Assembly (NCBI RefSeq): GCF_000420725.1
Contig: NZ_ATVM01000009.1
Location: forward strand, 1 to 64,000
DNA: 64,000 nt
Origin: Marinococcus halotolerans DSM 16375
GTDB lineage: Bacteria; Bacillota; Bacilli; Bacillales; Marinococcaceae
Reading direction: 5' to 3'
Below the pieces are notes generated by a model. The model saw only the letters and a program-made list of their open reading frames with translations, had not been told where the DNA came from and made no database searches. Shown here in pieces: positions 41,792 to 63,374 of this stretch. The first letter of the stretch is position 1. Every line of letters begins with the position of its first letter. A program made the position numbers and the translations under genes.

Positions 41792-43108
41792 TTACACGAA
41801 AACCCCGGTCTTTTCTCTCTCAAATTGCTGGAAAACATTTTTAGTCCGGACAGGGTAAACCTCCCGGCCTACGATTTGATTAATAATGACCGCGTTCCGA
41901 TGCGCTCCAAGCCCGAGATCCGGCGCCCCGACACCATGCGTGTGCATTTCACCGTTTTGAATAAACACATGACGGTTCCTTTCAGTCTGGACAGCGCGGT
42001 ATTTTTCATCAATCTGCAGACGCCCGTGTTTATCACGCTGCAGGCCTGCTTCGATACCCTTTAAAAACGGCTGTGGTGACGGCTGATAGCCTGTAGCCGC
42101 GATCAGCGCTTCCGTTTCTTCTGTGTACTCCGTACCGTAGTTAATCTCTTTCAAACACAGCTTCATTTTGCCGGCCGGCGTTCTCTCCATGCTCATCACT
42201 TCCGTATTCGCCTGCAGAATGATGTCCTCGCTCTCCCCTCCGATCGTCTGCTCATAAAGCTCATCGTACACCGCAGCAATGGTGTCAGCGCTGATCCCTT
42301 TATACAGAAGATCCTGCTTTTGAAGCAGCTGCTCCTTTGTGTAAGAATCAAGGTGGTAGAAATAACTAATATATTCCGGCGAAAAATGCTCCAGGCCGAG
42401 CTTGGAATACTCCATCGGGAAAAATCCTGAAGACCTTGTATACCAGCGCAGACTGTATCCATATTCAGGCCGGTGCTTTAGCAGATCGTAAAAGACTTCA
42501 GCGGCGCTCTGTCCGGAGCCTGCCACTGTAATACTCTTCTTTTGGAGCAGCTCCTTCCGGCGGTACCGGTAATCAGCAGAATGACAGACATCTTCTCCCT
42601 TTTCTGCCCAGAGGGGAAGCGACGGTTTCGTGCCCGTACCTGTCACGATGTGCCGGGTATAGTAGTATTCGGTTGTCTTAGCATCTGAACGTACCGCTTC
42701 CACTTTATACAGGCTGCTTTCTTCTAAAAAGGATACATTGGTCACGCGCCGGCCAAACCGGCAGGAGGAAAGCTTTTCCGCTGCCCACTGGCAGTAGTCA
42801 TTGTATTCGCGACGCGGAATATGAAATTTTTCATAGAAATAAAAAGCATACAGCCGGTCCTTTTCCTGCAAATACTGCAAAAAGGAGTAGGGATTTTTTG
42901 GGTCTGCCATCGTGACCAGATCAGCAAGAAAAGGAACCTGCAGGCTGGTGCCATCGAGCAGCATGCCGCCGTGCCATTCAAAAGCTTCATTTTCATCCAG
43001 AAATACGCCTTGTATTTCCGGCACGTTTTCCACGAGCGCTGCCATACCAAGGTTGAATGGCCCAACGCCTATGCCAATTACGTCATATACTTCTGTTTCA
43101 GCTGTCAC
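41792..43108 (-). CDS. siderophore amine N-monooxygenase (IucD/RhbE-like)
   Basis: A 438-residue flavin N-hydroxylase. The FAD motif GIGVGPFNLG is near residue 12, the NADPH motif GSGQSAAEVF lies in the middle, and the C-terminal ATGY motif is present as IAATGYQPSP. This enzyme hydroxylates a terminal amine of lysine, ornithine, cadaverine or diaminopropane before acetylation. The start is GTG at 43108 with AAGGAGG upstream, and it overlaps the acetyltransferase gene by 11 bp. Which amine is used depends on the decarboxylase product. Confidence 0.9.
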   Translation of the reverse strand: MTAETEVYDVIGIGVGPFNLGMAALVENVPEIQGVFLDENEAFEWHGGMLLDGTSLQVPFLADLVTMADPKNPYSFLQYLQEKDRLYAFYFYEKFHIPRREYNDYCQWAAEKLSSCRFGRRVTNVSFLEESSLYKVEAVRSDAKTTEYYYTRHIVTGTGTKPSLPLWAEKGEDVCHSADYRYRRKELLQKKSITVAGSGQSAAEVFYDLLKHRPEYGYSLRWYTRSSGFFPMEYSKLGLEHFSPEYISYFYHLDSYTKEQLLQKQDLLYKGISADTIAAVYDELYEQTIGGESEDIILQANTEVMSMERTPAGKMKLCLKEINYGTEYTEETEALIAATGYQPSPQPFLKGIEAGLQRDKHGRLQIDEKYRAVQTERNRHVFIQNGEMHTHGVGAPDLGLGAHRNAVIINQIVGREVYPVRTKNVFQQFEREKTGVFV

Positions 43109-55973: not shown

Positions 55974-56077
55974 CTGCCTCGTGTGCCTATTGTCATTTCG
56001 GGTATTTCTTATTATTCTATAATTAACAAAGAAATAAGCACCGTTTGAGGGCGCGCTACAGTAAAGGATGAAGGCCT

Positions 56078-56650
56078 ATGCATCATTCATCAACATCACC
56101 ATTCAGACCCTTCCCCACCCTGGAGACGGCAAGGCTCCGGCTCCGGGCCCTGCGTTATTCAGACCTTGAAGATATTTACGAATACGCCTCCAACCCACTT
56201 GTCTCCCGCAACGTTCTGTGGGACACCCACAAAAGCCGCGGGGAAACAAAAGATTTTCTGGATATCACGATGAACTCCTATAAATACGGTGACCGGGCGC
56301 CGTTTGGCATCGAACGCAAGGATTCCGGAAAAGTAATCGGCACCATCGATTTTGTGCATTGGGACCGTGGCCATGCCAACGGGGAAATTGGCTACACGCT
56401 CGCCCCGGACCATTGGAATCAGGGATTCGGCTCGGAAGCAGCACGGGAAATTATCCGCTTTGGCTTCGAAGACATGGGCCTGCACCGAATTGAAGCCCGG
56501 TGTTTTATCGAAAATACAGCCTCAGCCAAGGTGATGGAAAAGGTCGGGATGGTACATGAAGGCACACTGCGCCGTTCCTTGTTGATTCAGGGGGAACGGC
56601 GGGATGTCATGATCTACGCAATTCTAAAAACAGAATGGAAAAATAATTAA
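56078..56650 (+). CDS. GNAT N-acetyltransferase, RimJ type
   Basis: A 190-residue Acetyltransf_3 protein. LETARLRLRALRYSDLEDIYEYA opens the domain, and GEIGYTLAPDHWNQGFGSEAAREI is the acetyl-CoA loop. LHRIEARCFIENTASAKVMEKVGMVHEGTLR is the signature of the RimJ/RimL group. It ends at a terminator shared with dagK. The substrate is unknown. Confidence 0.87.
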   Translation: MHHSSTSPFRPFPTLETARLRLRALRYSDLEDIYEYASNPLVSRNVLWDTHKSRGETKDFLDITMNSYKYGDRAPFGIERKDSGKVIGTIDFVHWDRGHANGEIGYTLAPDHWNQGFGSEAAREIIRFGFEDMGLHRIEARCFIENTASAKVMEKVGMVHEGTLRRSLLIQGERRDVMIYAILKTEWKNN

Positions 56651-56674: not shown

Positions 56675-57562
56675 TTACGGACAGAACAATTCAATATGCT
56701 GGTATAAATTTTCAAACGTCGCCGGCAGATGGCCGCCGTATTCCCCGTCGAGGTTCAGCTGCATGTCTTCTTCTGCCTCTATACGAAGCTGTTTTGCTTT
56801 AAAATATTTGATTTTAGGATTCTCGAGATGCCTGCCGCGCAATGCCTGGCGAAGCAGCTGACTGAATTCAAACATCGTCATCTTCTGTACGATCATCACA
56901 TCAAAATAGCCGTCATTGTACTCTGCCTGCGGAAGAAGCTTTTCAAAACCGCCGACGGAATTGGTGTTGGACACAAGAAACATTGTAATTTCTTCCTCAA
57001 GAAACTTCCCATCGTATTCAACAGTGGTCATCTGCGGATGCAGGGACCAGAATTTCTCAAACCCTTTAATAAAATAGGCAGCCTGCCCCAGCGCCGTTTT
57101 CAGGCCCTTTGGAGTATCATAGGTGAGCTCCGTCAGCTTTCCGCCCGCAGCAATATTAATAAAGTACGAGCCGTTCGCCTTTCCTATATCAATACCCTGG
57201 GTGCGTCCGCGCGCAAATACATCGCAGACCTCTTTAATTTCTTTTCCCTGCAGTCCAAGGGCACGCGCAAAATCATTCGTCGTTCCGGCAGGAATAAGCC
57301 CTACCTTCGGGCGCCACTCCTGTTCGGCGATTCCGTTAATGACCTCAAAAATCGTGCCGTCCCCACCCGCAGCGACCACAGCTTCGAACCTGTCCTCGGA
57401 GGCGCGGCGTGCCTCATCCCGGGCATCCCCTTCCCCACGGGTCATAAATGCCGACGTTTCGTAACCCGCCTGCTCCATCCGGTCTAATATATAAGGCATC
57501 TGCCGCTCCATCTGTTCTCTTCCGGACGTTGGATTGTAGATCACTCTTGCTCGTTTTCGCAT
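56675..57562 (-). CDS. dagK: diacylglycerol kinase
   Basis: A 295-residue soluble lipid kinase of the DgkB/YegS type. The nucleotide motif GGDGT is at residues 66-70. PAGTTNDFARALG and the LNLDGEYGG metal and product loop follow. It phosphorylates diacylglycerol left over from lipoteichoic acid synthesis, returning it to phospholipid metabolism. In B. subtilis dgkB lies between gatCAB and rlmCD; the same order holds here with accessory genes inserted. Confidence 0.93.
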   Translation of the reverse strand: MRKRARVIYNPTSGREQMERQMPYILDRMEQAGYETSAFMTRGEGDARDEARRASEDRFEAVVAAGGDGTIFEVINGIAEQEWRPKVGLIPAGTTNDFARALGLQGKEIKEVCDVFARGRTQGIDIGKANGSYFINIAAGGKLTELTYDTPKGLKTALGQAAYFIKGFEKFWSLHPQMTTVEYDGKFLEEEITMFLVSNTNSVGGFEKLLPQAEYNDGYFDVMIVQKMTMFEFSQLLRQALRGRHLENPKIKYFKAKQLRIEAEEDMQLNLDGEYGGHLPATFENLYQHIELFCP

Positions 57563-57678
57563 ATTATAACCCCTATTACATCGAAGATTTCAATTCATTT
57601 GTATAATATATAAAAGAACTATCTTTTTCTCTCATTGTTACATGCGTTACTAATTAATTGTATACTATTGTTAATTCA

Positions 57679-58614
57679 TTAAACAGTAGCGGTTGTAGGG
57701 TCGATACTACCAGGTTGAAAATATGGACGCTGCGCCAAAGCGGCACGCTGAAAACGCAGATAGTTTTGGAGAATAAAGTCATAAAAAATTGTCTGTCCTT
57801 TTTCTTCTAAATAAAATAAGGATTTCTCCATACAACGAAGCGCTTCTTTTATATTACCTAAATAGTACAAACATATTCCTTTTTGATAATATAATTCTCC
57901 CAGTAAGTATAATGATTCTTGCTCATATACGTTTTTAATTCCTTCATCAACAACTTTCAACCCTTTTTTAAATTTATTAGAGTTTGCATAAACTACACAT
58001 GTATTAAAATATATTTTTGTTTGCATCGGCCCCCATTGATCTATAGGTAGTTTTTTATACAAAGTTCTTGCTTCGTCAAAATATTTAACTGCTTTATTAA
58101 ATTCTTTTGTGTCCATATAAATAGTGCCAAAATTTATAATAATACCTATGTCTTCTTCTGTAATACTCAACGTTTCCGTCTTAAGGTCTCTAGCTAATTG
58201 CAATAATTCTAAGGCTTCTTCTTTTTCATTTGTTAATTTAAAATGTAAAATAGCTCTTTTCCATAATAAAAACTTTTTGTGCACTGGCTTTCTGAAAAGA
58301 GGGTTTTTTAATTCCTCTCTTATGATATTCATAGCCTCAATAAAATCATAGTCACGGATTAACTTATCAATTTTATCTTTAGTGTCCCGAATATAATTAA
58401 ATCGTGGAGCTTCATGATCGTCAAAAAAATAACTTATCTTAACCCCTAATTTTATAGCTATCAAATTTAAAATTTCCGCAGTCGGTTGCATTTCATCTCT
58501 TTCAATTTTAGAAATAGCTTTTTGTGAACATATACTTTTAGCTAGTTCACTTTGGCTAACTTCATAGTATTGTCTTAGGTCCTTAAGTTTTGTACCCAAA
58601 GTTAATGTTTCCAT
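57679..58614 (-). CDS. PlcR-like HTH-TPR (RRNPP) quorum-sensing regulator
   Basis: A 311-residue regulator. An XRE-type HTH (about 6-62) with LGTKLKDLRQYYEVSQSELA and QKAISKIERDEMQPTAEIL is followed by helical TPR repeats from about 75 to 300. YLLGELYYQKGICLYYLG is very like the TPR blocks of PlcR. The length is close to that of PlcR (285) with an extra C-terminal tail of about 15 residues. In RRNPP proteins an imported oligopeptide binds the TPR groove. A 35-residue peptide gene is divergent, 172 bp away. The coding sequence is far more AT-rich than its neighbours. A near-palindrome covers its leader, so it may control itself. Confidence 0.85.
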   Translation of the reverse strand: METLTLGTKLKDLRQYYEVSQSELAKSICSQKAISKIERDEMQPTAEILNLIAIKLGVKISYFFDDHEAPRFNYIRDTKDKIDKLIRDYDFIEAMNIIREELKNPLFRKPVHKKFLLWKRAILHFKLTNEKEEALELLQLARDLKTETLSITEEDIGIIINFGTIYMDTKEFNKAVKYFDEARTLYKKLPIDQWGPMQTKIYFNTCVVYANSNKFKKGLKVVDEGIKNVYEQESLYLLGELYYQKGICLYYLGNIKEALRCMEKSLFYLEEKGQTIFYDFILQNYLRFQRAALAQRPYFQPGSIDPTTATV

Positions 58615-58625
58615 AACAACCTCCA

Positions 58626-58647
58626 GTTAAGTACTATAGTTCTTAAC
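58626..58647. promoter_or_regulatory. 22-bp near-perfect palindrome, likely operator of the RRNPP system
   Basis: GTTAAGTACT and AGTTCTTAAC flank a central AT, so arms of 11 bp differ at one pair only. It lies just upstream of the RBS of the regulator gene and downstream of a TACAAT -10-like box on the minus strand. A bound regulator would sit on its own leader. The peptide gene lies 140 bp on the other side. Confidence 0.6.
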
Positions 58648-58786
58648 ATTTCTATTGTATCATGAATACTGGATCTTAAAGCAGTTAATCACCTCTAAAG
58701 CCCGAATTCGCGGAATACACTTTTTTATTAATTGTGTAATAATATGGATAGAGCTTGATTAACTAGTCTTTAGGAGGAATGCAGTA

Positions 58787-58894
58787 ATGTCCAAAGCGTA
58801 TTTGTGTAAAATAGCAACTTTTGCCATAATGGCATCATTTGCAGCTGCTACTGGGGATTTCCAAACTCTAGTCAACCTGCCTGGAGTAGCTTAA
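58787..58894 (+). CDS. 35-residue putative secreted signalling peptide precursor
   Basis: A small gene not called by ordinary gene finding. The ATG at 58787 has AGGAGG (58772-58777) 9 bp upstream, and the frame runs to TAA at 58892. The product begins MSKAYLCK, continues with a hydrophobic stretch rich in Ala, Ile, Met and Phe (residues 9-22, ending in AAATG) and ends in DFQTLVNLPGVA. This is the layout of Phr/PapR precursors: export signal, then a short mature peptide at the C-terminus. The last seven residues, VNLPGVA, have Leu-Pro at positions 3 and 4, as in PapR heptapeptides such as ADLPFEF. It is divergent from the PlcR-like gene, so it is its likely ligand. Confidence 0.7.
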   Translation: MSKAYLCKIATFAIMASFAAATGDFQTLVNLPGVA

Positions 58895-58974
58895 TATCTA
58901 AGTTCTAAGTGTAAACCGTCACTCTCGACACTTTTCACACCATTAACCAAGCTTACCCCTGTTATATTTTTTGT

Positions 58975-59010
58975 ATCCCTTGCAGTTTAGCTGGCAGGGG
59001 ATTCTTTTTG
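58975..59010 (+). terminator. terminator downstream of the peptide gene
   Basis: ATCCCTTGC pairs with GCAGGGGAT (58975-58983, 58994-59002, one G-T pair), followed by TCTTTTTG on the + strand, 80 bp after the peptide stop. It supports an independent short transcript. The stretch 58895-58974 holds nothing else I recognise. Confidence 0.65.
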
Positions 59011-59053: not shown

Positions 59054-59365
59054 ATGCATTCCGACCAACATATTGCTTATTTTGTAGATCAATTTTTACA
59101 CCAGCTGGATCACGCGGATGATCCGGCTAAGCTCTGTGAGCTCCGCGACCGTGTTTTTGAACAGGGGACTCTTATCGGTACCCGCCTCCCTTACATTGAA
59201 ATGATGGGCACACTTTGGTATAAGCGCCCTTCTATCCTTCAGGAGGCGCTTGAGGATGAGCCTGTCTGCTACGGAGTTTTGGTTGATACGTTTGAGCATA
59301 TTTCTTCGAACCAGTTTGTATATATGCGCTGGCGGCTGCACGAATGGGCCAGGCTTTCTGCCTAA
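59054..59365 (+). CDS. hypothetical protein, helical, 103 residues
   Basis: Not recognised. AGGAGG lies 9 bp before the ATG, so it is probably expressed. The protein is soluble, acidic and mostly helical (HIAYFVDQFLHQLDHADDP, then LCELRDRVFEQGTLIGTRLPY). The conserved-looking LPYIEMMGTLWYKRPSILQEAL resembles no domain I can name. It lies downstream of the signalling cassette, but a terminator separates them. Confidence 0.65.
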   Translation: MHSDQHIAYFVDQFLHQLDHADDPAKLCELRDRVFEQGTLIGTRLPYIEMMGTLWYKRPSILQEALEDEPVCYGVLVDTFEHISSNQFVYMRWRLHEWARLSA

Positions 59366-59438: not shown

Positions 59439-60026
59439 ATGGCTGAGTTTACCGTGGATTCCCAAATATACCTTCGCCCGTTTAAAGATCAGGACGCCGC
59501 CGATTATCTGCAGCTGGTGGAGGATAATCGTTCTTACCTGCGACACTGGCTCCCGTGGGTGGATAAAACGCGTGAGCTGCGCGATGTACTCCGTTTTTTT
59601 GAGCACCGGGCCAGACTCGCCCGTCGCGGCAAATCCTACACGTTTGGCATCTGGTACAAAGGCAGACTCGCCGGGGCGATCAGCTTCAACCACGTGTACC
59701 GGTGGACCCGGCGCACCGTTATTGGCTACTGGCTCGCCGCTCCTTTTCAGGGCAAAGGCATTATGACCCGGGCAGTACAGACATTGACTGATTACGCCTT
59801 TCGGGATATTCATCTCCGGCGTGTGGATATTTGTGTTGCTCCGGACAACCGGCCCAGTCGTTCGATCCCGGAGCGCCTCGGCTTTGAAAAATATAAATAT
59901 GTGCGCAATGCCGAATGGCTGTATGACCATTACGTCGATCATGTCGTCTATACCATGCGCTCGCGTTTTTGGTTTCCGGCCATCCTCGGTACTGGTATAG
60001 AGCATACAAAAACCCCGCAATTTTAA
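59439..60026 (+). CDS. GNAT N-acetyltransferase, RimL/YdaF type
   Basis: A 195-residue acetyltransferase. The opening IYLRPFKDQDAADYLQLVEDNRSYLRHWLPWVD, broken by the usual loop, is typical of the RimL/YdaF group. IGYWLAAPFQGKGIMTRAVQTL is the acetyl-CoA loop, and LRRVDICVAPDNRPSRSIPERLGFE follows. The C-terminal 25 residues extend beyond the domain. It resembles the protein at 34046-34594. RBS GGAGGGG precedes the ATG. It converges on gatB with a shared terminator. Confidence 0.86.
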   Translation: MAEFTVDSQIYLRPFKDQDAADYLQLVEDNRSYLRHWLPWVDKTRELRDVLRFFEHRARLARRGKSYTFGIWYKGRLAGAISFNHVYRWTRRTVIGYWLAAPFQGKGIMTRAVQTLTDYAFRDIHLRRVDICVAPDNRPSRSIPERLGFEKYKYVRNAEWLYDHYVDHVVYTMRSRFWFPAILGTGIEHTKTPQF

Positions 60027-63264: not shown

Positions 63265-63330
63265 CAGTTTTTCCTCCTTTAAATGCTTCTGTCGTTCTTC
63301 TGTCGTGACAATACTCTGATCATATCAAAG

Positions 63331-63358
63331 AAAAAGGAAAGCGGGCAACTGTGCCCAC
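63331..63358 (-). terminator. terminator after camS
   Basis: GCGGGCA / TGCCCAC (63341-63347, 63352-63358, one G-T pair) with a 4-nt loop and TTTCCTTTTT on the minus strand. Confidence 0.6.
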
Positions 63359-63374
63359 TTCCCGCGCTCACAAA

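Follow-up and report, generated by a model that had tools for sequence, protein, structure and literature searches.

The window analyzed here is a 64,000-nucleotide stretch of Marinococcus halotolerans DSM 16375 (genome G000, 3.14 Mb). It carries a regulator gene and a 35-codon gene in divergent orientation, with a palindrome between them and the gene of an orphan protein beyond the small gene. The features of the locus are as follows.

57679 to 58614, minus strand: HTH and TPR regulator of 311 aa, a PlcR-like receptor by its matches (Pfam RNPP_C, E 3.9e-14)
57680 to 58905, no strand assigned: allelic block of receptor and peptide, the type of which varies between Marinococcus species
58630 to 58643, no strand assigned: palindrome AGTACTATAGTTCT, 15 nt 5' of the start codon of the regulator gene; candidate operator
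58735 to 58743, plus strand: conserved TGT(A/C)A(T/C)AAT, resembling an extended -10 of the peptide gene, seen by eye at eight loci, about 100 bp from the palindrome
58772 to 58777, plus strand: Shine-Dalgarno sequence AGGAGG, 9 nt 5' of the precursor ATG
58787 to 58894, plus strand: putative pheromone precursor gene of 35 codons, with a basic N-end, a hydrophobic core, a conserved GD[FV], and the C-terminal end VNLPGVA
58871 to 58891, plus strand: codons for VNLPGVA, the predicted mature heptapeptide, whose Leu-Pro is in the register of PapR7 in 8/8
58936 to 59008, plus strand: C-rich 3' stretch with a hairpin (58975 to 59002) and a T-run, a candidate terminator
59054 to 59365, plus strand: orphan 103-aa protein with a predicted six-helix fold (pLDDT 92.5), adjoining the pair

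A regulator gene and a divergent small gene

The regulator matches the Pfam families HTH_3 (E 2.6e-9), RNPP_C, and TPR, and PlcR (PDB 2qfc, E 1.2e-14) is its sole PDB sequence match at E values up to 0.001, in agreement with an earlier sequence-only reading of the locus that had placed an HTH-TPR gene of PlcR pattern opposite the small frame. A model built from eight orthologues (pLDDT 81.6) consists of helical repeats, and its best three structural matches are PlcR (Z 24.3, 23.1, and 22.2, with rmsd of 10.5, 6.0, and 8.6, respectively); the large rmsd perhaps reflects domains that are packed differently. Because further TPR proteins match the model at Z 21.1 and lower, the fold alone is unspecific for PlcR, and it is the sequence match that is specific. 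With 311 aa, TPRs, and RNPP_C, the protein falls within the bounds of RRNPP receptors (about 250 to 500 aa with TPRs).

The small frame opposite the regulator encodes MSKAYLCKIATFAIMASFAAATGDFQTLVNLPGVA and runs intact over 35 codons from ATG to stop as read in the window. Its 35-aa product and the 172 nt separating both start codons lie within the range of RRNPP propeptides, which is 10 to 100 aa and -60 to 400 bp from the receptor. A search of 101 genomes, 29 of them from the family, found the regulator clade in eight (54 to 100% identical; the next best match is 36%). These are the window genome, four other Marinococcus genomes (G001; G002, M. luteus; G003, M. halophilus; and G004, an uncultured Marinococcus), Sinobaca qinghaiensis (G005), G016, and an Alteribacillus (G022). 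A close dgk orthologue is present in 24 genomes, and the regulator adjoins it in eight; among the remaining 16, gatB lies within 1.5 kb of dgk in eight, and the regulator is there in none (0/16).

All eight clade loci carry a precursor orthologue of 34 to 36 codons with the same layout and a ribosome site, divergent from the regulator, and frameshifts and internal stops number zero in 8/8. Four orthologues (G001, G002, G016, and G022) start with GTG and the rest with ATG. From reading the sequences, a basic N-end and a hydrophobic core are present in every orthologue; the Gly-Asp that follows the core is invariant and leads to a V-x-Leu-Pro-x-x-x end. That end is VNLPGVA in G000 and G004, VHLPGAA in G003, and VNLPGIM in G001 and G002; outside Marinococcus it is VSLPHAY (G016 and G022) or VTLPHAY (G005). 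The Leu-Pro occupies -5/-4 in 8/8, so that the alignment of VNLPGVA with ADLPFEF of PapR, proposed from the window alone, is exact. In the propeptides of NprR and PlcR, a glycine that follows the hydrophobic helix is reported to be conserved (PMC9765709). Of 28 pairs of precursor genes, 2 have saturated dS; among the other 26, dN/dS falls below 1 in 25 and is 1.05 in the remaining one, G002-G022. This is weak evidence because of saturation and the short length of the gene. The retention of an intact small frame opposite homologous regulators confirms that the frame, with its ATG and AGGAGG, is a real gene and supports the claim of the sequence-only reading that it is one half of a new peptide-receptor pair.

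Receptor and peptide types within Marinococcus

Within the five Marinococcus genomes, receptor and peptide behave as a single allelic block of three types, with the peptide ends VNLPGVA, VHLPGAA, and VNLPGIM (G003 carries type B; the remaining two are types A and C), and both ends of the block lie near the two stop codons. We aligned about 20 kb of the five genomes and scanned identity at 500-base and then at 60-base resolution. In 500-base windows, G004 and G001 are 92 to 100% identical from 48500 to 68400 except at the cassette, where identity drops to 69 to 78% across 57500 to 59000. At 60-base resolution, the drop begins at about 57680, the regulator stop codon, and ends at about 58905, just beyond the peptide stop codon, with the lowest value (45%) within the peptide gene. 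Inside the block, G004 goes with G000 and G001 with G002. Trees of the flanks join G004 and G001 with a support of 100 on both sides (78 in the short 103-aa gene). The regulator tree instead joins G001 and G002 with a support of 100 and places G004 beside G000, and the tree of the peptide gene (108 bases) returns the same groupings with supports of 88 and 95.

Synonymous divergence gives the same picture: dS between types is 1.7 to 2.2 or saturated in the regulator versus 0.06 to 0.55 in gatB. Between types A and C, it is 1.7 to 1.9 or saturated versus 0.30 to 0.32 in gatB for the same pairs, and the gatB value for G004 and G001 is 0.06. The contrast with the flanks is weaker for G003, in whose pairs dgk dS is 1.1 to 1.4. 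Regulators of types A and C are 77% identical in the HTH part, 64% over residues 131 to 195, and 51% over residues 196 to 250. Toward its C-terminus, the type B regulator is close to type A (88 to 93% in DNA, windows 57710 to 57830), a likeness that suggests recombination within the regulator gene as well. The possibility that G004 and G001 are simply close sister genomes was rejected, as they are only 91.5% identical at a second regulator locus described below; their near-identical flanks here are therefore probably a recombined tract. Recombination of this G001/G004 tract, from 48500 to 68400, is probably recent.

The layout, with a short hydrophobic product encoded opposite an HTH gene, would also suit a membrane peptide or toxin whose repressor or antitoxin is the HTH gene, and a weak partial match to the antitoxin-like repressor model NF052239 was obtained (30.1 bits versus a cutoff of 335). 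We consider this very unlikely, given that the conservation of the small product lies at its C-terminus, with Leu-Pro in the PapR register, and not in its core, that the regulator carries RNPP_C and is PlcR-like, and that the small frame and the regulator switch type together.

Another explanation makes the small frame a leader or a spurious frame within a regulatory RNA, so that the RNA is the conserved entity. Downstream of the frame, the C-rich stretch with its hairpin is indeed highly conserved in Marinococcus (97 to 100% identity over 58936 to 59008 in the five genomes), and the hairpin is present in the consensus fold. However, this stretch lies outside the varying block, and although the DNA of the small frame is only about 40 to 60% identical between types, its reading frame and start, its ribosome site, and the residues at its C-terminus are retained in 8/8; we therefore hold this explanation to be less probable still. 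The C-rich stretch is taken as a terminator and possibly as the end of a regulatory RNA. The terminator scan, which permits loops of up to 8, did not call the hairpin, whose loop is 10. A larger role as a regulatory RNA, beyond that of a terminator or possible RNA, was set aside: the stretch has no match in Rfam, both-sided compensatory change affects 0 of the 9 hairpin pairs, three sequences gave folding z-scores of -2.1, -0.3, and -2.9, and in a ranking of the 70-column stretches that are invariant within Marinococcus, over the 20-kb region, it shares ranks four to six. By eye, none of the 10 wider loci viewed (see below) has such a stretch. Two other segments, 56004 to 56092 (89 columns, mostly 5' of a GNAT gene start at 56078) and 63307 to 63364 (58 columns), are invariant in the five Marinococcus genomes and have no Rfam match.

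The intergenic palindrome and the linked 103-aa protein

The palindrome between the genes is conserved. The pattern AGWACTATAGTWCT (where W is a variable base) matches exactly once in every one of the eight system-bearing genomes, each time at this locus, and four family genomes that lack the system have no exact match. If one mismatch is allowed, there are one or two sites per system-bearing genome versus zero to five for a reversed-pattern control, so that the exact match alone stands out; the one-mismatch sites of G001, G004, G016, and G022 fall in coding frames (two G010 sites lay outside this check). At two mismatches, G000 has 11 further sites versus 49 for the control. Ten of the 11 were checked: five are within frames of at least 100 codons and five are outside, four of these no more than 350 bases upstream of a frame of at least 100 codons. 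With 5/10 sites outside long frames, looser targets are possible. A two-mismatch copy at G000:C39:531-544 (L129) lies between frames, upstream of a 104-codon frame.

Autoregulation through one operator is the simplest reading, and the pair is probably autoregulatory; the palindrome may be bound by a different protein. On the side of the peptide gene, the conserved TGT(A/C)A(T/C)AAT is a possible extended -10. A consensus promoter scan did not call it, and the peptide promoter is not consensus sigma-70. A box like CCTAGAGTTAT was seen by eye in the same place at 5 of the 10 wider loci viewed. No PlcR box (TATGnAnnnnTnCATA) lies between the genes at up to one mismatch, the nearest being at 57817, within the regulator gene. 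Elsewhere in the window, TATGAAATTTTTCATA at 42820 to 42835 matches the PlcR-box consensus exactly.

The gene of the 103-aa protein lies outside the allelic block and is linked to the pair. The protein occurs in 8 of the 29 family genomes, the same eight as the regulator and always adjacent to it. Of 299 genomes sampled from the order, three encode it, each of which also has the system. Since the pair and this gene form one island between dgk and gatB, their co-occurrence is not independent evidence for a functional link. Searches of Pfam, NCBIfam, and PHROG gave no match (over the eight members, the best Pfam E value is 0.0075, in 2/8), and a profile search of the PDB gave no credible match (best E 0.49). 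With the structural model, the best Foldseek E value is 1.4, and the best VIA-align match (Z 6.7, rmsd 3.6, 84 residues) is in the range of unrelated helical bundles. The 103-aa protein may be the output of the system, by read-through of the terminator from the peptide promoter. A GNAT acetyltransferase gene (59439 to 60026) lies between it and gatB; the match listed for this gene in the Alteribacillus and Sinobaca regions is the other GNAT gene.

Related systems and the proposed circuit

Both flanks of 22 distant PlcR-like loci (L010 to L031; further regulator matches without loci were left out) were scanned for frames of 22 to 70 codons that have a ribosome site and whose product has a basic N-end and a hydrophobic core. 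Such a frame occurs at 16/22 loci versus a mean of 4.6 and a maximum of 10 in 60 sets of shuffled flanks. When Leu/Ile-Pro in the last nine residues is added, 14/22 loci have a candidate and 8/22 have none; the 60 shuffled sets average 0.3 such loci and reach 2 at most. Nine of the 14 candidates are divergent, four convergent, and one downstream on the same strand. The expectation that each homologous regulator would have a similar divergent small frame thus held throughout the clade (8/8) and only in part at the wider loci. At L025 (2546 to 2686), a distant precursor ends in ELPPLF twice, a doubled pheromone. When the second Marinococcus system is counted with the wider set, Leu/Ile-Pro stands exactly at -5/-4 in 12/15 candidates, which makes this register a common mark of the receptor group.

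That second system consists of another PlcR-like regulator, 27% identical (G000:C29:28065-28892, L072, and L082 to L085), with its own divergent frame of 40 to 41 codons that ends in ITRD(I/L)PHQY and hardly varies; both are present in 5/5 Marinococcus genomes. Its presence allows for an arrangement in which the regulator at 57679 to 58614 senses another peptide and the small frame described here encodes the signal for some other receptor. The second peptide, however, has a near-invariant end (ITRDIPHQY or ITRDLPHQY), whereas the small frame varies in step with the regulator beside it, and we find this the least probable of the alternatives.

We conclude, with a probability of about 0.88, that the two genes form an RRNPP-type pair of receptor and pheromone that is close to PlcR-PapR. 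papR lies downstream of its receptor gene on the same strand, whereas the peptide gene here is divergent from the receptor gene in 8/8. As in PlcR-PapR, the receptor combines HTH and TPR parts (PlcR, PDB 2qfc and 3u3w, being its nearest relative of solved structure), the short precursor has an x-x-Leu-Pro-x-x-x end comparable to ADLPFEF (PMC6568020), and there are several allelic pherotypes, of which four are described in the Bacillus cereus group (PMC6568020). Unlike in PlcR-PapR, an orphan 103-aa protein is linked, and in place of a PlcR box the genes are separated by a dissimilar palindrome with one exact match per genome; for PlcR, a list of 45 controlled genes has been given (PMC2464732). 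The positions of PlcR Lys87 and Lys89, which are thought to hold Glu6 of PapR (PMC6568020), are Arg87 and Tyr89 in the window regulator by an ungapped alignment, and the peptide residue in the place of Glu6 is Val, Ala, or Ile, none of them acidic. Both observations fit a changed pocket. Judged by the missing PlcR box, the divergent order, and the replaced lysines, the pair is PlcR-like and not PlcR itself.

Other families share some of these features. Allelic receptor-peptide types are also known for streptococcal ComR-ComS, where the pherotypes of Streptococcus suis are transferable (PMC4072589), but ComR belongs to another receptor subfamily, and its short peptides are exported by PptAB (PMC9765709). 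Diverged receptor-peptide alleles occur likewise in Rap-Phr of Bacillus, where they were horizontally acquired (PMC5199041), but the N-end of Rap is a three-helix bundle and not a DNA-binding HTH (PMC9765709). The arrangement resembles the candidate clusters of RRNPP_detector, in which a small precursor lies close to a TPR receptor of 250 to 500 aa (PMC10075063). RRNPP systems are well known, and large predicted catalogues exist (PMC10075063, PMC9765709, and PMC12700828). Among the literature matches listed, none describes a peptide signaling pair of Marinococcus, Sinobaca, or Alteribacillus, and to that extent, supplementary tables of predicted pairs apart, the description of the pair as new to the literature stands. 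PMC10764424, the one listed paper whose main subject is Marinococcus, mentions quorum sensing once, where archaeal genes are compared. We take the pair as a new, PlcR-like member of the known RRNPP systems, one whose circuit is unusually compact.

By analogy with PlcR-PapR, the 35-residue precursor would be exported by Sec and trimmed to approximately its last 5 to 8 residues, with the cut that would yield VNLPGVA placed by likeness to PapR7. The trimmed peptide would then be re-imported through an oligopeptide permease, and the window genome encodes one SBP_bac_5 (OppA-type) protein. Inside the cell, the peptide would bind the TPR groove of the regulator, which would act at the palindrome between the genes and so control the pair and, in all probability, the neighboring gene of the 103-aa protein; the sign of this regulation and its target are likewise modeled on PlcR-PapR.

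A more specific and doubtful extension is that the locus is a private quorum switch, in which a single receptor type is matched to a single peptide and has a single exact operator genome-wide. Its output would be the adjoining orphan protein of helical fold, perhaps together with the C-rich RNA end, and the receptor-peptide cassette would be exchanged between species while the output is kept. The looser palindrome sites in gaps between frames make this less probable. If it is true, the locus would sort cells into signaling groups with a common response. With its one exact operator and its linked orphan protein, the locus would represent a small, possibly complete circuit, as opposed to the broad PlcR regulon. 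The pair extends PlcR-like signaling and its Leu-Pro register to divergent gene pairs, and three Marinococcus types within one conserved locus offer a natural experiment on joint change of receptor and signal. For the halophilic Marinococcus, Alteribacillus, and Sinobaca, the peptide ends provide a testable peptide code.
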